44,918 nucleotides of DNA from a virus. Both the position numbers and the translations under genes were made by a program. The notes below the pieces were generated by a model, which saw nothing but the letters and a program-made list of their open reading frames with translations, was not told where the DNA came from and ran no database searches. Shown in pieces: positions 99 through 38,782 of this stretch (its first letter is position 1; each line of letters starts with the position of its first letter). The DNA lies in IMG/VR virus record IMGVR_UViG_3300020180_000032, positions 1-44,918 of that record; one strand, 5' to 3'.

Positions 99-368
99 TT
101 AGGCTGCTAGGGTCAATACTGCACTACCGATGCTGCCCCAGCAGTCCAACTCGTACAGGACCGGGCAGCCAGCATTAGCTGCAAGCGCGACTTTATAGCA
201 TGGCTCGCCATTAAAGTACGACGTCTCGAACTCGCATATGAGAAACATTCTATCCACGTCTGAACTTGTCATCTGGCTTGGGGTGGAGCCCCAGCAGTCC
301 GAGATGTAGTCGAATATTTGATCCGGCCCGTAGGCCTCCGCGAGAGCGATCGCTATTGGGTTTATCAT
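99..368 (-). CDS. Small acidic protein of unknown function (89 aa)
   Basis: The ATG at 368 has a strong AAAGGAG site a few bases upstream; the stop is TAA at 99. I do not recognise the family. The protein is acidic and has two CWGS motifs, near residues 25 and 76, and four cysteines in all, which could hint at an internal repeat or paired cysteines. It belongs to the minus-strand cluster that diverges from the late genes, so an early or host-takeover role is possible but not shown. Confidence 0.6.
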   Translation of the reverse strand: MINPIAIALAEAYGPDQIFDYISDCWGSTPSQMTSSDVDRMFLICEFETSYFNGEPCYKVALAANAGCPVLYELDCWGSIGSAVLTLAA

Positions 369-398: not shown

Positions 399-827
399 TT
401 AGTCCGTCTCTTCCGCCGCAATAAACGCCTCGGCGTCAAAGTAGACGCCAATCGGCATCTGTGAGATCTCTGCTTCCGGGTCAAAGCGGAATCTCAAAAA
501 CATGTCGTCGCACTCAGCCCAGTACAAAATTGCTGGTTCGCAGTCCATCCAAGTCTGGATAAACGCGGAATTACGCGCTACGCCGTTACCCGGCGTCCGC
601 ATAAACTCGCTGTGTGTCGTTGCGCCGTCCAAGTTGGTGATGGCGTAGGTGTTGCAGCCTTCCCTCGCCGATTCGTTCCACACCTCACACGCATCCGACT
701 CGTTAACGTGTGCTTCGGCGTCCATGTACCCGCCACACTCCGCGCGAATAATGGCGCGGGCGTCTTCTATCGTTTGTGCGGACCGACTCCAGTTTGGCAG
801 GCCGCCGTAGCTGATTGTGTATTCCAT
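399..827 (-). CDS. Acidic protein of unknown function (142 aa)
   Basis: The ATG at 827 follows an AAAGGAG site; the stop is TAG at 399. The protein is acidic and aromatic, with five cysteines, and no motif I can name. The N-terminus, with a beta-rich start followed by a helical segment of the type DARAIIRAECGG, looks like a small compact domain. It lies between two other small genes with short gaps and probably belongs to one minus-strand transcript starting near 1525. Confidence 0.6.
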   Translation of the reverse strand: MEYTISYGGLPNWSRSAQTIEDARAIIRAECGGYMDAEAHVNESDACEVWNESAREGCNTYAITNLDGATTHSEFMRTPGNGVARNSAFIQTWMDCEPAILYWAECDDMFLRFRFDPEAEISQMPIGVYFDAEAFIAAEETD

Positions 828-859
828 TTTATTTCTCCTTTGGTTGTGGGTTGTGGGTT

Positions 860-880
860 GGGCGAGTAGCGCCCGTGGGG
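860..880 (-). repeat. Intergenic hairpin module, copy B
   Basis: This is the second copy of the 77-97 hairpin (stem 860-864 with 870-874, loop AGTAG). It sits between the stop codon at 883 and the ribosome-binding site of the 399-827 gene. The stem is identical and the loop differs by one base. Confidence 0.55.
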
Positions 881-882
881 GG

Positions 883-1227
883 TTAGCGGGTGGTTAACAA
901 CCTAGCGATCACGACAGCTTCCCGTATTACTATCTCTCCGGGGTCTTCTCCTGTCATCGCCACTTGCCCGCCTATCAGATACAAATGGCCGAAGCTCTTG
1001 TATCCGGCTATCAGGACCAGTGCATTATCAGCCTGGGCATTTATGGCGCAAGTGCCATCGAGCTGCTCGCCGGTATCCTCGCCATCGTCCCATCGGTAAG
1101 AGTCGCCGAGATCCTCGCCGTCTGCGAGGTCCCTATCGTCGTAACGGAGCCCAACTGATGCGTAGCTTTGCAGCGCGGATTCGATTGCTTGGTTGGTGTT
1201 GGCTTCCATGTAATTAGCAAAGCTCAT
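883..1227 (-). CDS. Acidic protein of unknown function (114 aa)
   Basis: The ATG at 1227 overlaps the TGA of the upstream gene (ATGA), indicating translational coupling. The middle (about residues 28-58) is very rich in Asp, Glu and Gly, and the C-terminal half has hydrophobic beta-like segments. No known family is recognised. The overlap with 1224-1484 supports it as a real gene of the minus-strand operon. Confidence 0.6.
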   Translation of the reverse strand: MSFANYMEANTNQAIESALQSYASVGLRYDDRDLADGEDLGDSYRWDDGEDTGEQLDGTCAINAQADNALVLIAGYKSFGHLYLIGGQVAMTGEDPGEIVIREAVVIARLLTTR

Positions 1228-29227: not shown

Positions 29228-30355
29228 ATGGAATATACAAGCCCGGTAGTACGCGGGTTGATGAACGGCTTCTCGTTGGGCAACATGCTCCAACAACAGC
29301 AGATGGACAAGCGCCGTCTGGATATGCAGGAGCAACAGCAGGGCTTCGACAATCAATCCAGGCAGGTTACGCTACTCTCGCAGCTCGCCGAGATGGGCGC
29401 GCGCCCGGTTACGCAGAGCGACCAGTACGAGGCCGACGGTGGCCAACATGTGAACTTCGGAGAAGACTTTTCTATCACTTCTTCGCCTACCGATTTGCCG
29501 GCGCGAATGTTGGCGATGCCAGGAACCGGGCAGCGGTTTGTTCTGCCGTCTACAGGGGAGCGAGACGAGCGGGCGGCCAGACAAACCCAGCGGTCGTTAC
29601 TGGACCGCAACCGGGCGGCAGCCGAGGCGCACGCGACGACGTTGACGCAGAACGAGGCGGGTGCGGCGCGCAACTTGGAAGCCACTGGCATTCAGTTGCC
29701 GGCGGAATTATTGCAACGGTTCGGCATGCAACCGGGCCGGAAGGTATTGCCGACGCAGATGGATGACTTGATGCGGGCGGACACGTACCGGACCCAGGTG
29801 ACTACGCCCAAGGCGCGGAAGGTAATCAACACCGCGCGAGTTCAGGGCCAGGACGGAAAACTAATGTCGGTCCTCACCTACGAGGACGGCACCCAGGAAT
29901 TCAAGCCGATCAACGGGACGACCCCCACACGCGCCGGTACCGGTACCGGATCCGGAAGATCGAAAGCGGCGGCCGAGCCGAAGCCGACGTTTACTCAGAC
30001 GGTAAACGCGCTCTCGACGAAGGTGCTGGAGGAATCGGCGGCCGGTGGCGGGCAGACCATTGACGACGCGCTGGACAACGTAGACGCGTACTATCAGAAC
30101 GATCCTCAGTTCAACGGCGCTATCCGGCAGCAGATTCGTTCGAAGCTTCGCAAGATGGGAGCAAAGGACGCAAAGAATCCCTTTGCAAAAGAGGTCGCGC
30201 CGAAGGTCGCGCCGAAGGTCGCGCCAAATGCCGCGCCAAATGCCGCGCCGAAGGTCGCGTCGAAGGCAAACGTTTCAGCGTTCGCCACAGCGAAAGGAAT
30301 CACTGAGGCGCAAGCCATGGAAGAGTTTAAGAAATCCGGCTACGAGGTTAAGTAA
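29228..30355 (+). CDS. Internal virion protein-like, Gln-rich (375 aa)
   Basis: The N-terminus is a Gln/Met-rich helix (MLQQQQMDKRRLDMQEQQQGFDNQ, about 19-43), of a type common in phage ejection proteins. A long low-complexity, helical body follows. Near the C-terminus a run of Lys-Val-Ala-Pro/Asn-Ala-Ala-Pro units (about 322-345) comes from a 12-base tandem repeat. AAGGAGA lies just before the ATG; the stop is in a TAATG overlap with the giant gene. Confidence 0.62.
   Translation: MEYTSPVVRGLMNGFSLGNMLQQQQMDKRRLDMQEQQQGFDNQSRQVTLLSQLAEMGARPVTQSDQYEADGGQHVNFGEDFSITSSPTDLPARMLAMPGTGQRFVLPSTGERDERAARQTQRSLLDRNRAAAEAHATTLTQNEAGAARNLEATGIQLPAELLQRFGMQPGRKVLPTQMDDLMRADTYRTQVTTPKARKVINTARVQGQDGKLMSVLTYEDGTQEFKPINGTTPTRAGTGTGSGRSKAAAEPKPTFTQTVNALSTKVLEESAAGGGQTIDDALDNVDAYYQNDPQFNGAIRQQIRSKLRKMGAKDAKNPFAKEVAPKVAPKVAPNAAPNAAPKVASKANVSAFATAKGITEAQAMEEFKKSGYEVK
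30193..30264 (+). repeat. 12-base tandem repeat (six units)
   Basis: Units of the type GTCGCGCCGAAG or GCCGCGCCAAAT repeat about six times and encode VAPK/AAPN tetrapeptides. Confidence 0.8.
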
Positions 30356-33300
30356 TGGCCGATCTTTCCGTTGAAGAGTTTATGAAATCAGGAGCGTCAG
30401 AGTTGACGCCCGATTCGTTTATGGCGTCGGCGCCCGGCCAAACCAACCCCGCAGTTTCCCCGCAGGTTCCAGCCGGTTCCCCCAGCAGCCCCACCCCATC
30501 CGGCGCTGGCTTCATGGAGCCATTCCGCCGTATCGGCGAGATGGTTCTCGGGTCACCCAGGAAACCCACCGCAATCGGAGAGATCGTGTTCCCGATGACC
30601 GAGACGGACCCGACGGTACTGCGGGACCTTCGCGCTACTCGCGCCCCGTGGGAAGCGCCGCCGATTCTGGACTTGGGCGCAATCGGTGTGTCTAAGGCGA
30701 TGCCATCCGGCGCTGTCAGGGGAGCGGCGCAAGGTGTTGAAGAGTTCATGAGCGGGCTATCCAGTCCCACGAACGTGATGCTGATGGGAGGGATGGGACT
30801 GTTGAAGGCGGCGCCCACGCTCCAGAAGTTGGCGTCGGCTGGATTCTCCATCGACATGCTCCGCGGAGCGTATGAGCAGAACGAGCAGTTTCAGCAGGCC
30901 GTGCAAGCGGGCGACACCGAGGCGGCGGCGCGGGCATTCGTCGGCCTTACTGGATCGGCAGCAATGGGAGTTGGCGCGGCAAAGCATGCCGTAGCGACAC
31001 CGAAGCAGAAAATCCGCATTGCGCCGGACACGCCGGCCGAGGCGGAGTCCAGGCGTATTTCGCTGGCCGAGAATAGGGACTTAGCCGAGGCTCGTACAGA
31101 TCCGGCCCAGGCGTCGAAGCTGGTGAACAAGGAAATCGAGCGGCGACAGGCGGCCGGGCAGTGGGATGCGGCATTGGAGAAGACGCCGAGCCCGCAGGAA
31201 GCCCGCGCGCGAAAGCAGGCCAGCCGTGTCACGGTACCCGAAGAGGGCGACCAGAACCCGGCGCTGACATACCAGCGAGGGAACGTCGCCGCGGAGCTGG
31301 CTGGCAAGGGGTACGAAGAGCTTACTCCCGAGGAGCGGAGTTCGGTGGATGATCTGGTGCGGCAGGGGTACGGGATGCGCGAAGCGGGGACAGAATCCCG
31401 CCCATCACAATTGCCGTCTGATCAAAGTCGAAAAGTCGAATCTGGCACCCGCACGGAAGACAGTGCAGTAATAGCCCTTCCCGCCGATAAGATTCAACTT
31501 CCCGCTGACACTGTGGGCATTCCATCCCCCAAGGATACGCCAGTCCGCCAGGCCCGCGTAGAAGAGCAGAACGCGGTAACACGCGAAGCACTACGCGAGG
31601 ATGCGCAGCGGATACTGGACGAATCCACGCTGGACGCTGCTACGAAACCATCGCCGAACGTGCGGCTTGACCAGGACGGGGTGGTAAGGGAAGTCCGGAA
31701 TCCAACCTACCAGGAAGCGCAGGAAGCCCGCAGGGCCGAGCGCCTCCCTAAAGAACCGGAACCGCTGCTTGATCAGATAGCCGACGCCGAACCGGAGCCG
31801 AGCTTTATGAGGAGGCTGGATGAAACCGGCAAGGAAGCTTCAAAGCGTTTGCAGCAGCGTTTATCGAAGACCAGCTCCGCGAACGAGTTCCTGAACCCGG
31901 AGACCATCCGCGACATGGCGCAGGCCATTGCGGGCGATGTGGCCCGCGGCACGCTGAAGCTGGCCGAGGTAGGGCGACGGCTGAGCGCCGAGTACGGGCC
32001 CAAAGCGCGGGCCGTGGCGCAGAAGGTGTGGGCGGAAGCGCAGAACATTATCCGCATCAGCGGGCAGGGCTCCAGAGAACGGCAGCGTGGCAGTATCGTA
32101 CTCGGCGGAATCGAACCGAAAGCCGAGCCAACTGGATCCGCTCCACCGAAGAAGACGGCCACCGCCGAAGCGCCCGCGTCCCCAGGCGACGGCGCTATTC
32201 CGGTATCGCCGTCCTACGAGAAGACCAAAGGGAAAATCCTTGACAAGCTGGACGTGTCAGAGGAAACGAAAAAGCAAACCGCCGGCAAGATGCAGGAGTG
32301 GGAATCCGCTCATCCGGAGAGAAAGAAGATTACCCATGCCGAGATTCGCGAGGAGGCGAGGAAGCTCGACCCGTCTATCCTCGCGGACATGGATACAAAA
32401 GCCGCACAAGACATTGCGATCAAAGATCCAGCCATGTACCATGCGGCGCGACAAGCCATTCCCGGTTTGATCGAGAAAGCGGCGCGAATTCAAAAGGAAG
32501 TCGACAAAGCCCCGCGCGGCGCCGACGTGACCGAACTGCAAAATCAGCTCGAACAGGCGAACCAGGACGCACAGCAGATGTTAAACGTCACCATCCCTGT
32601 ACGCAGCCAGCATGGCCGCAATCTCGCCATGCATCGAATGACCGTCGATACAGTCGGCTTCGATCCTACTTACTGGGTTGGCCGCGCCAAGAAGTCGATG
32701 GGATTGCCACCGGATGCCAGCCTGCCTCCAGAAGTACAACGTGACTTAAACGGCGTCCTGGCCGAGGGACGTGCAGCCGAGCAGGAAGCGCTCGGCAAGA
32801 TTCGCGAGCAGGAAGAGCCCAAGCCGAATATCGAAGCTCCGGTACCGAAGCGAAAGCAAGACCGCCGCACCGTAGACGAAACCGGTGCCCCCATCGAGCC
32901 TCCGAAGGCGAAAGAGAAACCGCAGCGTGAGGCCGTAGACACAACGACTCCACCGACGCCGGAGGAGAAAATAAAGATCGATGCCGACGCTAATGTGCAG
33001 GCCGCGCGGCGCAATCTGGCCCGCAAAATGGCCAAGCTGCAGAAGACTTCGCTACTGGACACTATTTCCGCTATTCGCCGGGCCGGTCTCCTCACCAGCC
33101 CACGAACCATGATCAGGAACATCGGTGGCAACTTCACCATGATGGCCCTCGAAGAAATCAGCCGTGTTCCCGGAGCAATGCTCGACGTCGGTATCTCCCT
33201 GTTCTCAAAACAGCGGACCGTCCAAGGTCCAAGCGGAATTGCGATTGCCAGATCTTCTTATGCAGCAGCAACAAAAGGAATAGCGGAAGCACGCCAAATC

Positions 33301-34722
33301 ATGAAACATGGCTCAACCGCTGAACAGCTCGCCCAGTTCGATATGGTGAAGGAGTTGAACCTCGGCGGCGGGCGACCATCCCGAGTCATGGAATCTTACG
33401 TAAACGGCGTGTTCCGCTTCATGTCGGCGACTGATCGCGTTTTCAAGCGGTACGCGATTGAGCGGTCCTTGCAGGAGCAGCAGAAACTTGCCGGTGTCGA
33501 TAAGCCGACGGAAGCGATGATGGCGCAGGCCATCGCCGACGCTGATTTCGCGACCTTCAACAACCAGAACAAGCTGGCTGATATGTTTAGCCGCGCCAAG
33601 AGAGGCGCTTCCCCAGGCACCCGCTTCGCAATGGACATGACAGTGCCATTTGTCCGAACGCCTGCCAACGTCTTCGCCCGAGTTCTGGACTACTCAGGCG
33701 GCGGTCTGCTAAAGGCAGGCGCGGGCGGCATCAAAGCGGCGATCGATAAGTCGATGACTCCAGAACAGCAGCGTGCGATCTCGCAGAACTTTGGCCGTGG
33801 AGTGACCGGCCCGGCGCTGATCTATATGGGCTACCAACTCGCAGCCGCTGGCCTCGCCACCGGCAGTTATCAGGCCGATGCCGGGAAGCGCAACACCGAC
33901 GAAGCCGCCGGACGTCTCGCTGGCGCGGTTAAGATTGGCGGCACATGGCAGATGGTTTCTCCGCTCTCGCCAGGCGGTGCACTAATAACTATCGGCGCGA
34001 CCTTGCAGCGCGAAGCGACCGGGCCGCTAAAAGACGAGGCCAAGCGGCCGGGGAAACTGCTATCAGTTATCGGGCGCACGGTCCTCGACCATCCCTTTTT
34101 GCAGGGAGCGAAGGAAATTATTGAGGCCATCAGCGATCCGGAGCGGCAAGGCGAACGCGCGGCCGCATCCATGGCGGGCTCGTTCGTACCGTCGGCAGTG
34201 TCGGATGTCGCCAGTCTCGGCGATAAAGTACGGCGCGACTCCCGGACCGACGGCGGCACACTGGACGCGAGCGCCGCCGCCATGGCCGCGCGAACGCCCG
34301 GAGCACGCAACACCCTCCCCGAGCGCAAGGACGTTCTTGGCCGGCCGCTGCCACAGAGCAATACGGCTGTCGTCAATCCGGGCATCGGCAGCCAAGCGAA
34401 AGAAGATTCCGACCCGATCATCCGGGAATTAGTCCGTAACAAAGTCGCGTTGAGCGAGCCACAGAAAGCACCCGGCGAAACGCTGGACCAATTCCGAATG
34501 CGCCGGGAGATTCTAGGCCACGAAATCGAGAAGCAACTCGGCAGGGAGATCGCCACCCCAACCTACCGCGCACTCGATACTGAGGATGAACGCCGCGGCT
34601 CACTCGACAAAGCCGAGGGCCGAGCGCGGCGATTGGTGGCGGCCAAACTCGGCAAGCGTTACGCCGGAGCATCGGCGGCCGCGCGAATGGCGATGCTCAC
34701 CGAACTCCTGAAATCCAAGTAA
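30355..34722 (+). CDS. Giant internal virion (ejection) protein (1455 aa)
   Basis: The protein is hydrophilic and helix-rich, with a disordered Pro/Ser N-terminus (about 25-50), an Ala/Gly-rich hydrophobic segment (about 120-220) and long charged linkers (about 230-860). Then comes a folded region (about 890-1260) with LLTSPRTMIRNIGGN and TVPFVRTPANVFARVLDY. That second motif recurs in large phage internal proteins. A C-terminal helix bundle follows. Its size and place before the lysis genes fit a core protein injected with DNA. I see no certain enzyme motif, so a transglycosylase or other activity is not claimed. The stop TAA lies inside late promoter copy 5. Confidence 0.7.
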   Translation: MADLSVEEFMKSGASELTPDSFMASAPGQTNPAVSPQVPAGSPSSPTPSGAGFMEPFRRIGEMVLGSPRKPTAIGEIVFPMTETDPTVLRDLRATRAPWEAPPILDLGAIGVSKAMPSGAVRGAAQGVEEFMSGLSSPTNVMLMGGMGLLKAAPTLQKLASAGFSIDMLRGAYEQNEQFQQAVQAGDTEAAARAFVGLTGSAAMGVGAAKHAVATPKQKIRIAPDTPAEAESRRISLAENRDLAEARTDPAQASKLVNKEIERRQAAGQWDAALEKTPSPQEARARKQASRVTVPEEGDQNPALTYQRGNVAAELAGKGYEELTPEERSSVDDLVRQGYGMREAGTESRPSQLPSDQSRKVESGTRTEDSAVIALPADKIQLPADTVGIPSPKDTPVRQARVEEQNAVTREALREDAQRILDESTLDAATKPSPNVRLDQDGVVREVRNPTYQEAQEARRAERLPKEPEPLLDQIADAEPEPSFMRRLDETGKEASKRLQQRLSKTSSANEFLNPETIRDMAQAIAGDVARGTLKLAEVGRRLSAEYGPKARAVAQKVWAEAQNIIRISGQGSRERQRGSIVLGGIEPKAEPTGSAPPKKTATAEAPASPGDGAIPVSPSYEKTKGKILDKLDVSEETKKQTAGKMQEWESAHPERKKITHAEIREEARKLDPSILADMDTKAAQDIAIKDPAMYHAARQAIPGLIEKAARIQKEVDKAPRGADVTELQNQLEQANQDAQQMLNVTIPVRSQHGRNLAMHRMTVDTVGFDPTYWVGRAKKSMGLPPDASLPPEVQRDLNGVLAEGRAAEQEALGKIREQEEPKPNIEAPVPKRKQDRRTVDETGAPIEPPKAKEKPQREAVDTTTPPTPEEKIKIDADANVQAARRNLARKMAKLQKTSLLDTISAIRRAGLLTSPRTMIRNIGGNFTMMALEEISRVPGAMLDVGISLFSKQRTVQGPSGIAIARSSYAAATKGIAEARQIMKHGSTAEQLAQFDMVKELNLGGGRPSRVMESYVNGVFRFMSATDRVFKRYAIERSLQEQQKLAGVDKPTEAMMAQAIADADFATFNNQNKLADMFSRAKRGASPGTRFAMDMTVPFVRTPANVFARVLDYSGGGLLKAGAGGIKAAIDKSMTPEQQRAISQNFGRGVTGPALIYMGYQLAAAGLATGSYQADAGKRNTDEAAGRLAGAVKIGGTWQMVSPLSPGGALITIGATLQREATGPLKDEAKRPGKLLSVIGRTVLDHPFLQGAKEIIEAISDPERQGERAAASMAGSFVPSAVSDVASLGDKVRRDSRTDGGTLDASAAAMAARTPGARNTLPERKDVLGRPLPQSNTAVVNPGIGSQAKEDSDPIIRELVRNKVALSEPQKAPGETLDQFRMRREILGHEIEKQLGREIATPTYRALDTEDERRGSLDKAEGRARRLVAAKLGKRYAGASAAARMAMLTELLKSK

Positions 34723-35438: not shown

Positions 35439-35633
35439 ATGTCAGACGAAGCCCAGGTGCCGGTAGGCGTCCGTAAATACATGTCGGCAATTGGCCGCAA
35501 AGGCGGCCTCGTTTCAAGCGAACGAAAGGGCGCGGCTGGATGGACTCCAGAGCAGCGTTCCGAGAACGGGAAAAAGGGCGCTTTTGCTCGCGCAAAGAAG
35601 AAGAAAAAACGCTTGACAGCCAAAGCCGCTTAG
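35439..35633 (+). CDS. Small basic KGG-type protein (64 aa)
   Basis: The gene has a perfect AAAGGAGG site about 7 bases before the ATG. The protein has two Gly/Lys units (IGRKGGLVSSERKGAAGWTPEQ and SENGKKGAFARAKKKKKR) recalling the KGG motif of small stress or DNA-associated bacterial proteins. It is strongly basic. Possibly a nucleic-acid binder or regulator of the adjacent palindromes; inference only. Confidence 0.65.
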   Translation: MSDEAQVPVGVRKYMSAIGRKGGLVSSERKGAAGWTPEQRSENGKKGAFARAKKKKKRLTAKAA

Positions 35634-36111: not shown

Positions 36112-36138
36112 GGCGGCCCCCTGACCGCCCCTATTTTT
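36112..36138 (+). terminator. Weak terminator/attenuator before the nuclease gene
   Basis: GGCGG (36112-36116) and CCGCC (36125-36129) form a 5-bp stem with an 8-base loop, followed by CCTATTTTT. The short stem makes this uncertain. Confidence 0.35.
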
Positions 36139-36158
36139 GAAAAACGAAAGGAAAAACA

Positions 36159-37265
36159 ATGGAAAAAAAAGTGACAGCGCTCGAAGCAGCCATCGCCGTT
36201 GTTGACGGCGAACCGGAGTACACGCTCCGCCAAGCCACGATCCGCGCCATGTTAGTCGGCTACGATCATCGATACGCCGATAACTGGAACCAGTTCCAGA
36301 TTCACGAGGTTGAGGAGTTCATTTCCTCTCCTCTGTTTAACCCAGCGACTGGGGCGAAATCGAGAACCTTCATCAACGGCGGAATCATCGACGTTGAGAT
36401 GGACGACGGCCAAGGGCACGGCATCATGGATCACAAGACGACGTCGGACCAGATCGAAAATCCAGACGACACATACTGGAAGGTCCTGCAAGTCGAGAGC
36501 CAGCTTGACCACTACCTGTTGCTGAAGCACATCAACGGGCAGAAGGCGGACTGGGCAATTTGGGATGTGATGCGCAAGCCGGGCATCCGTCCGAGAGCCA
36601 TCACGAAAGCCGAATTGAAAGTGTTGGAATCCGAAGGCATTTACTTCGGCGCCCGGATCCCGCCCGATATCATTCGCCCGGCATGCCTGGACGGCAGAGA
36701 GTCGCTGGAACTATTTGAAGCCAGACTGATTGGAGAATGTACCGGCGAGAATCAGGGGAGGTACTTCCAGCGCCGCCGAATCACGCGTTTGGCCGGGCAG
36801 ATCCTCACTTACGCCGAGGAACTTTGGGACAACGGGCTGGAGTTCCGCGAGGCCCGGCAGAGCAAGCGCCGCGGACGCAACTCCGGCGCGTGCATGAACT
36901 ACGGCAGAGCCTGCATGTATCTGCCGATTTGCGCAGGCCACGATGCGGTGGATTCCGGCAATTGGAAACAGAAGGAGTACGTACACGGCGAGCTTCCCAT
37001 CTTCGACGACAAGCAGGGCGGCCGATCGATCCTCACCAATTCGCGCATCCGGACGTTTCAGTCGTGCCGGCGTAAAGAGTACCTGGCCTATGACCTGGGA
37101 ATTGAAAGAAACGATCCGGAGGAGATTGAAGTCCTCGCCTTCGGCACACTCTGGCACAAGGCCCTCGCGGCCTATTTTTTAACCATCAAGGAGATTCAAC
37201 ATGGCAATGCCACAACTACCGGCCCGGAAGCAGAACGGTCCGCCGCAAACTTCGTTAGCGCCTAA
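36159..37265 (+). CDS. RecB/Cas4-like PD-(D/E)XK exonuclease, apparently circularly permuted (368 aa)
   Basis: Catalytic core motifs are GIIDVEM (Asp 78), DHK (91-93) and QLDHY (115-119). A cysteine cluster C245-x6-C252-x5-C258 matches the C-terminal part of the iron-sulfur motif in Cas4/AddB-like nucleases. In family members known to me a LTNSRLxxFxxCPRK...FGTLxHxAL module opens the protein. Here the start lacks it and an equivalent module (LTNSRIRTF-QSCRRK with C303, FGTLWHKAL with H333) lies at residues 292-340. All expected active-site and cluster residues are therefore present, but reordered. AAAGGA precedes the ATG. The last 65 bases overlap the next gene. Confidence 0.75.
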   Translation: MEKKVTALEAAIAVVDGEPEYTLRQATIRAMLVGYDHRYADNWNQFQIHEVEEFISSPLFNPATGAKSRTFINGGIIDVEMDDGQGHGIMDHKTTSDQIENPDDTYWKVLQVESQLDHYLLLKHINGQKADWAIWDVMRKPGIRPRAITKAELKVLESEGIYFGARIPPDIIRPACLDGRESLELFEARLIGECTGENQGRYFQRRRITRLAGQILTYAEELWDNGLEFREARQSKRRGRNSGACMNYGRACMYLPICAGHDAVDSGNWKQKEYVHGELPIFDDKQGGRSILTNSRIRTFQSCRRKEYLAYDLGIERNDPEEIEVLAFGTLWHKALAAYFLTIKEIQHGNATTTGPEAERSAANFVSA

Positions 37266-38088
37266 ATTCACGATGGCCGATATCACCGGCAAAGGCCCCG
37301 GCCTTCCGAATCGGCTGATCCTTCACGCCACGGAGGGATGGGGAAAAACGAGTTTTGGCGCAATGATTAAGCAGGTTATCTTCATTCAGGCGCGCGGTGA
37401 GACGGGCCTGGAAACGCTGATCGACGCCAAGCAGGTTCCGGAGACGCCGCACTTCCCGGTTGCTAATACCTGGCTTGATTTGAATGCGCAGGTTGAGTTC
37501 CTGCTTTCGGAACAGCATGAATTCAGGGCACTCGCCATCGACACAATTAACGGAATCGAGCGGCTCTGCCACGAGCACACCTGCGATACCGAGTACAGCG
37601 GCGACTGGGGTGAAAGAGGCTTCATGGGCTTTCATAAAGGCTTCGAAACGTCTCTGGCCCCATGGCGTGAGTTCCTTTCGAAGCTCGATCGACTTCGCGC
37701 CGAAAAGCGGATGTCGATTATTCTTCTTTGCCATACGGCCGTGAAGAACTTCAAGAATCCGGAAGGGTCGGATTACGACCGCTACCAGACGAAGATGCAC
37801 GACAAAACATGGGCATTGACCAAGGAGTGGGCGGATATCGTCCTGTTTGGGCATTACCAAACCATCGTGATCGGGAAAAATGGGAAGGAAGAAACAGACC
37901 CGACGAAGCGAGGCAAGGCGGCGGGCGGAGCCGAGCGAATCCTCCTGACGGAGCGCACGGCCGCGTGGGACGCCAAGAATCGGTTGGGATTGCCGGCTGA
38001 AATCGAGTGCGGCGATTCCGCACAGGAAACTTGGGCGGCGTTCGTCGCCGCCGCTAAAGCCGCCAAGGAGGCGGGTATCAATGGCTAA
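37201..38088 (+). CDS. Sak4-like/AAA_24 recombination ATPase (295 aa)
   Basis: The Walker A is HATEGWGKTSFGA (about 42-54), the Walker B is FRALAIDTINGIE (about 108-120), and sensor-like ILLCHT lies near 175-180. This is the pattern of phage P-loop proteins in the RecA/Sak4 group, thought to load on single-stranded DNA and help annealing or strand exchange. Neighbouring nuclease and SSB-like genes support this. AAGGAG lies just before ATG 37201. It overlaps the nuclease gene by 65 bases and the next gene by 8. Confidence 0.78.
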   Translation: MAMPQLPARKQNGPPQTSLAPKFTMADITGKGPGLPNRLILHATEGWGKTSFGAMIKQVIFIQARGETGLETLIDAKQVPETPHFPVANTWLDLNAQVEFLLSEQHEFRALAIDTINGIERLCHEHTCDTEYSGDWGERGFMGFHKGFETSLAPWREFLSKLDRLRAEKRMSIILLCHTAVKNFKNPEGSDYDRYQTKMHDKTWALTKEWADIVLFGHYQTIVIGKNGKEETDPTKRGKAAGGAERILLTERTAAWDAKNRLGLPAEIECGDSAQETWAAFVAAAKAAKEAGING

Positions 38089-38782
38089 GCCATTCTATAA
38101 GCAAGGCAAGTACGCTGTAACCTTTCGAGGCGAGCAGGGATTCAGCGAGACGCAGAGTGGAAACACGCAATTTTTCCTCCGCTTCGATGTAACGCACATC
38201 GCGGTGGGGGAAGAGTGGGAGGCGGTTCCGAACTCCTACACGCGGACTTATTACCGAGTCATCAACGCCAACACGGCGGAATTTGCCGTCGAGGACTTGA
38301 TGGCACTCGGCTACACCGGCGATTCTTTCAAGCAATTGGACCCACGATGGCCGGAACCCTTTATGTTCGAAGGGCAGTCGGTCATGATCTGCAACCACGA
38401 ATCGTGGGGAAATGGCGAGCCCAAGGAGTCGTGGACTCCAGCGCGCGAACGGGCCGGTAGCGCCAAAGCCGTTGAGCTAATCGATAGCAAGAAGTTGAAG
38501 CAGCTCGACATGCTGTTTGGCAAGGCGTTCAAGGGAGAGAAGATCGGTTCTCCCGCCCCGCCGAAGGCATCCGGACCGGTTCTCCCGGCCCGCGGATCGA
38601 CGGCTGGCCTCCCGCTGAAGGCAGACGAGCTGCCGTTGACTTCTCAGCCGCGCCAGAAACCGGAGCCAACCCTCCCGCCGCAGGGAATTGACCCAGCCAC
38701 AGGCTATGCCAATGAGCCCGCTCAACCGCCAGCAAGCGTCTACGGCCCGGCGGAAATCGACGACGACGATATTCCCTTTTAA
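38081..38782 (+). CDS. SSB-like single-stranded DNA-binding protein (233 aa)
   Basis: The N-terminal part (about 1-110) is beta-rich with aromatic residues and could form an OB-like fold. A Pro-rich linker (about 155-225) follows, and the protein ends in DDDDIPF. That is the hallmark acidic tip by which SSB proteins recruit repair and replication partners. Encoded directly after the Sak4-like ATPase. The family of the N-terminal domain is not certain; it could be of DUF669-like type. Confidence 0.72.
   Translation: MAKPFYKQGKYAVTFRGEQGFSETQSGNTQFFLRFDVTHIAVGEEWEAVPNSYTRTYYRVINANTAEFAVEDLMALGYTGDSFKQLDPRWPEPFMFEGQSVMICNHESWGNGEPKESWTPARERAGSAKAVELIDSKKLKQLDMLFGKAFKGEKIGSPAPPKASGPVLPARGSTAGLPLKADELPLTSQPRQKPEPTLPPQGIDPATGYANEPAQPPASVYGPAEIDDDDIPF

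Follow-up and report, generated by a model that had tools for sequence, protein, structure and literature searches.

The nuclease gene, its segments and its neighbours

The window, i.e. the whole 44,918-base stretch of viral DNA analysed here, carries at 36159..37265 on the + strand an ATG-initiated gene of 368 aa for a permuted nuclease of the RecB/Cas4 type, in which the conserved segments follow one another in the order D-K-M. A purine-rich ribosome site (GAAAGGAAAAACA-ATG) precedes the ORF, and as an in-frame stop is located upstream at 36138-36140, leaving 36141 as the earliest conceivable start, the N-terminus of the protein has no missing part. Segment D (36219..36392, + strand) consists of helices and a strand bearing D78 (codon 36390-36392), the first of the catalytic Asp residues, and matches a profile (coreN, E 2e-13) for the part that comes second in ordinary relatives. 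Segment K (36423..36995, + strand; coreC profile, E 9e-29, and invariance in alignments) contains DHK (D91 at 36429-36431 and K93 at 36435-36437), QxxxY (Q115 at 36501-36503 and Y119 at 36513-36515) and three cysteines (C245 at 36891-36893, C252 at 36912-36914 and C258 at 36930-36932), and ends at HGEL. At the junction (36981..37025, + strand) the chain passes from VHGEL, where ordinary relatives usually terminate, through a short linker into segment M (37026..37178, + strand; cmod profile, E 1e-11, and Pfam PDDEXK_1), the module that opens ordinary relatives, which holds the fourth cysteine (C303, 37065-37067) and the histidine of GTLWH (H333, 37155-37157). The C-terminal tail (37203..37265, + strand) is variable, unconserved and predicted to be disordered, with pLDDT <50 for residues 351-368, and the last 65 bases of the gene (37201-37265) are shared with the beginning of the following gene.

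An earlier note, made from the letters of the window, had given this order of motifs, and its ORF, its coordinates and every residue it named (D78, D91, K93, Q115, C245, C252, C258, C303 and H333) are correct. It also held that the residues of the active site and of the four-cysteine set are present but reordered, and indeed all ten, Y119 included, are invariant in a 22-row alignment of DKM proteins. Likewise, the chain opens where the second part of an ordinary protein would begin, as the note had said, the new ends lying between the helix of GTxxH and the one that follows it.

The overlapping gene downstream (37201..38088, + strand) encodes a Sak4-like ssDNA annealing ATPase of the AAA_24 type (PF13479, E 8e-29; phrog_124, E 5e-26), the presumed recombinase partner. 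It is followed at 38081..38782 (+ strand) by a probable single-strand DNA-binding protein with the acidic tail DDDDIPF, for which Pfam and PHROG gave no match and which occupies the same place as the annotated SSB of the Tunturi phages. Upstream, the window also contains a 1455-aa ORF for a large uncharacterised protein without any PHROG match (30355-34722) and a short ORF (35439-35633) for a basic product of 64 aa that shows the pattern IGRKGG...ENGKKGAFARAKKKKK.

Permuted and ordinary members of the family

Pfam PDDEXK_1 (PF12705) matches the window protein in two stretches, with 46.6 bits against a cut-off of 22. As the best of these places residues 293-349 on profile positions 3-51, the C-terminus of the window protein corresponds to the N-terminus of the family. 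The exonuclease profile phrog_1218 also matches in two stretches (E 2.8e-20), the best placing residues 16-148 on profile positions 88-216. The collinear order of the family, i.e. Cys/GTxxH module, Asp, ExK, QxxxY and three cysteines, is not that of the window protein, and because of its permuted motif order we file it as a permuted offshoot, homologous to PF12705/phrog_1218 and yet not a collinear member. Relative to an ordinary protein, two homologous segments have changed places and the old termini are joined, as defines a circular permutant, and the four conserved cysteines are arranged as one plus three (C303; C245, C252 and C258), as in nucleases of the AddB/Cas4 type. The Cas4 Pfam model (PF01930) does not match the protein, PDDEXK_1 being the only model reported at E up to 1, and cas1 and cas2 are absent from the neighbourhood, which consists of the Sak4-like and SSB-like genes.

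The unpermuted form, which the earlier note had proposed to look for in related phages, exists as close ordinary relatives in many phages and prophages. By tblastn only residues 280-358 of the window protein were linked to the N-terminus of Cas4-family exonucleases of Microbacterium and Streptomyces phages, and in a protein of Siphoviridae sp. ctuI7215 both pieces are present with their order swapped. Close ordinary relatives were also obtained by a profile search of 294 genomes from the phylum of a Planctomycetaceae MAG, and when IMG/VR was scanned with an alignment of ordinary relatives, most of the relatives kept (80 of 276 related stretches) read M (the module), D (the first-Asp part) and K (the part with ExK, Q and three cysteines). 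The cysteines of these MDK relatives are C22 and C297, C303 and C309, and the proteins end a median of 7 residues past the conserved HxEL. In permuted proteins the linker from HxEL to the module has a median of 9 residues (range 7-15 in DKM and 6-21 in KMD, a further order described below). Since the DKM chain crosses HxEL where ordinary relatives end and then enters the module, the old C-terminus has been joined to the old N-terminus.

The known phage exonucleases of PF12705/phrog_1218 (PermaG gp43 of a Microbacterium phage, Araceli gp50 of a Streptomyces phage and the protein of Siphoviridae sp. ctuI7215) have the same catalytic residues as the window protein and in many phages lie beside a RecA/Sak4-like gene, as the window gene does, but they read module, D, K, whereas the window protein reads D, K, module. 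All four cysteines are common to the window protein and the close MDK relatives, whereas the PermaG and Araceli products have only two C-terminal cysteines. One MDK relative (L119:1258-3552, + strand, in IMGVR_UViG_3300047160_014300) carries an intein of ~350 aa inside the active-site motif, EHK|TTSE, which is matched by both Pfam Intein_splicing and LAGLIDADG_3.

Together with the window protein we count 34 distinct DKM proteins. Tunturi_1 and Tunturi_2, isolated phages of Tunturiibacter psychrotolerans (Acidobacteriota), encode the DKM form at 45-47% identity, 27 related loci in IMG/VR are 35-80% identical to the window protein, and a contig of one Planctomycetaceae MAG also carries a DKM nuclease. 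That contig came from the second of two scans for bacterial carriers with back-translated patterns, the first of which found none; a plasmid search gave no match. As the ten residues are invariant in proteins (21-22 aligned) that share 37-80% identity with the window protein, the motif pattern is not due to chance. Two DKM loci deserve separate mention, a very divergent and probable one before a Sak4-like gene, whose first-Asp part falls below the profile threshold (L211:2385-3377, + strand), and a gene spread over two frames of a metagenome contig, probably owing to a frameshift or sequencing error (L031:3310-4330, + strand).

Compared with the ordinary family the start and end of the window protein look abrupt, as they would if it were a broken nuclease, a pseudogene or the product of a misjoined contig. 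Such an origin has next to no probability, since both halves are conserved in the 33 further distinct DKM proteins, which come from many contigs and from two isolates, and Tunturi_1 and Tunturi_2 rule it out unless their records are wrong. We also looked for the case raised in the earlier note, a complete second nuclease of which the window protein would be a mere fragment, and the 44,918-base record proved to contain no further copy of the nuclease. The window ORF is confirmed as an intact PD-(D/E)XK nuclease of the RecB/Cas4 type that is genuinely and conservedly circularly permuted, and, as judged from the alignments, the permutation has lost no conserved active-site residue.

Separate profiles were made for M, D and K, all loci were scanned with them ORF by ORF, and the segments were ordered in 180 distinct full proteins. 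The ordinary order MDK was found in 139, DKM in 34 and KMD in the remaining 7, and none of the 180 had a non-cyclic order (MKD, KDM or DMK). In all three orders conservation is 99-100% at the four cysteines, at the His of the module and the first Asp, and at the Lys, Gln and Tyr. The second permutation, KMD, which the earlier note had missed, is represented by the phage proteins L122, L123, L124, L131, L138, L147 and L149, the last of only 289 aa. These proteins begin a few positions ahead of the ExK strand (e.g. 'MGRWLVEHKTTSED...' in L149) and most of them stop a few residues past the first-Asp strand ('...GKIDAIVEAE'). As the chain starts just before ExK and ends just after the first Asp, the cut lies at the hairpin inside the PD-(D/E)XK motif itself.

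Natural circular permutations are usually known as a single odd relative. The present case is unusually clear, as related phages carry the enzyme both permuted and unpermuted within the same gene neighbourhood, in all three cyclic rotations and in no other order, and it offers a rare natural series for asking how enzymes become permuted, whether iron-sulfur clusters help and what the nuclease gains. A search of the open-access literature for permuted Cas4, RecB or PD-(D/E)XK nucleases returned nothing relevant, which is weak evidence of novelty. The nearest parallel is provided by DNA methyltransferases with permuted motif orders (PMC3320104), in which, as in this nuclease family, one fold occurs in several natural rotations with its motifs kept; they differ in fold and reaction, and for them duplicated intermediates are documented. 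The proteins of Tunturi_1 and Tunturi_2 are annotated only as 'exonuclease', and annotation that filters on motif order or relies on collinear profiles would miss or halve such proteins.

Predicted fold and role

AlphaFold gave confident models, predicting the window protein (21 sequences) with pLDDT 89.4 and pTM 0.85, and the KMD protein L122 (7 sequences) with pLDDT 90.0 and pTM 0.83. By sequential alignment, a method unable to locate module M, residues 4..261 of the DKM model align to 839..1039 of AdnA (Z 9.2, 3.3 A, 178 residues) and residues 2..264 to 843..1138 of AddB (Z 6.7). The KMD model scores low, its best alignment being that of 132..316 on AdnA 785..927 (Z 4.5); about the same range falls on AddB 772-778..951 (Z 3.2-3.5, low), and residues 1..133 fall on MGME1 244..335. 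Although the KMD scores are singly low, the aligned ranges of the two models are complementary, which argues for one nuclease domain cut at two points. The nuclease domains of AddB (AddAB, 3u44/4cej) and AdnA are alike in core fold to the window model; unlike the window protein they are helicase-fused and unpermuted. CRISPR Cas4 (PF01930) and the Cas4-family ACE1 proteins (9iac, 9iab; Z 7.9 between ACE1 and the window model) combine a nuclease with a four-cysteine cluster, as predicted for the window protein, but these too are unpermuted, whereas the window protein has neither a Cas4 Pfam match nor adjoining cas genes.

When the permuted profile was run against the sequences of solved structures, only chance matches came up. 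Among predicted viral structures (BFVD) the window model has one near-full-length match, A0A6J5NSY1 of an uncultured phage (TM 0.72/0.77 over 354 columns), which by its model is probably another DKM protein; the other matches are mostly partial. A0A6J5NSY1, A0A6J5MFE0 and A0A516LBA7 align near full length to the DKM or the KMD model and, on these models, are probably permuted nucleases that have gone unnoticed in public databases.

We propose that the window chain would fold into the usual nuclease, in which D78, D91 and K93 would bind metal and cut, H333, far away towards the other end of the chain, would complete the active site, Q115 and Y119 would touch DNA, and C245, C252, C258 and C303 would hold an iron-sulfur cluster pinning module M to the core. 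Sequence alone cannot separate packing of the module within one chain from packing between chains, and a domain-swapped region, noted in 1fzr (PMC1913061), is known within the superfamily. Accordingly, the C-terminal module of one subunit might complete the active site and cluster of its neighbour in a domain-swapped oligomer. This seems quite improbable, since the single-chain AlphaFold model is confident over the module (pLDDT block means of ~88-97 for residues 291-350, pTM 0.85) and the junction linker, at the median length given above, is short. The confident model, and a core that aligns to the part of AdnA and AddB where it is expected, lend indirect support to module M of the window protein packing in its usual place.

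In all three orders a Sak4-like gene usually comes next: among loci whose flank was long enough it lies downstream in 31/31 DKM, 7/7 KMD and 115/133 MDK, so that the enzyme most probably serves as the exonuclease in a phage recombination pair. Nuclease and Sak4-like gene lie side by side, as expected of such a pair (31/31 DKM loci), and for Burkholderia phages it has been suggested that an exonuclease together with a Sak4-like protein forms a recombination system (PMC3483164). The nuclease would resect DNA ends into single-stranded tails, which would then be used by the Sak4-like protein and the SSB. The permuted nuclease could be active and nevertheless serve another task, such as processing of replication forks or countering of host defence; Cas4-like phage proteins of PF12705 have other reported roles, e.g. 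in Campylobacter, where they affect host spacer acquisition (PMC5704561). We find such a task unlikely given that a Sak4-like neighbour, followed by an SSB-like gene, accompanies nearly all permuted and most ordinary members, and given the pairs suggested for recombination in the Burkholderia phages. End resection for phage recombination is the likeliest role, and it is highly probable that the window gene encodes an active, naturally permuted RecB/Cas4-like PDDEXK_1 exonuclease working with the adjoining Sak4-like protein. Its nuclease activity, polarity, iron-sulfur cluster and partnership with the Sak4-like protein are all predictions from these comparisons.

Origin of the permutations

In AddB the ends are held together by an iron-sulfur staple, to which the stretch ahead of the nuclease core contributes one cysteine and the stretch behind it three. 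As ordinary members of the present family carry a single cysteine close to the N-terminus and the other three close to the C-terminus, their presumed cluster would likewise hold the ends side by side. A short linker could then join the stapled ends, and new ends could open elsewhere with the fold undisturbed. By analogy with AddB we suggest that the staple may have been the enabling feature for permutation in this family. We consider it probable that one phage nuclease family occurs in all three M-D-K rotations and only these, through at least two independent permutation events eased by an iron-sulfur staple of the ancestral termini, the KMD form having the ExK strand first and the catalytic Asp strand last, so that the PD-(D/E)XK motif is split between the chain ends.

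The earlier note had put the permutation down to a tandem duplication whose outer halves were then lost. This stands in so far as it fits the junction, and duplication with subsequent trimming would explain both rotations; the intermediates it implies were not seen, as 211 distinct family ORFs included no fused duplicate (MDKM, MDKMDK or longer). The missing duplicates would agree with an origin by fission and re-fusion or by cut and paste of module M, and both duplication and fission are recognised as routes to circular permutation (PMC3320104). Nevertheless, natural split halves are equally absent from the 211 ORFs, and a tandem fusion trimmed at different points would readily account for two rotations of one domain that share their type of junction. 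We therefore hold fission or cut and paste to be a serious but less probable route, and duplication with trimming remains the explanation that fits.

The number of events was approached with a carefully built tree of 73 rows, whose deep branches are poorly resolved. In this tree 16 rows, the window protein among them, form a firmly supported DKM clade (100/100), to which L043 is weakly attached; the L130/L132 group and L148 lie elsewhere, and the KMD rows occupy two positions. In AU tests a single clade of all permuted proteins received p 0.036, whereas single clades of all DKM, all KMD and DKM minus L148 received p 0.072, 0.29 and 0.387, respectively. At least two permutation events are likely, though not firmly so. 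A quick tree of 109 rows indicated several origins; as constrained trees outscored the free tree, it is not relied on and was set aside. L148 (L148:2983-3999, + strand) is the DKM protein nearest in sequence to ordinary and KMD proteins and not to the window clade, and may represent an independent DKM permutation.
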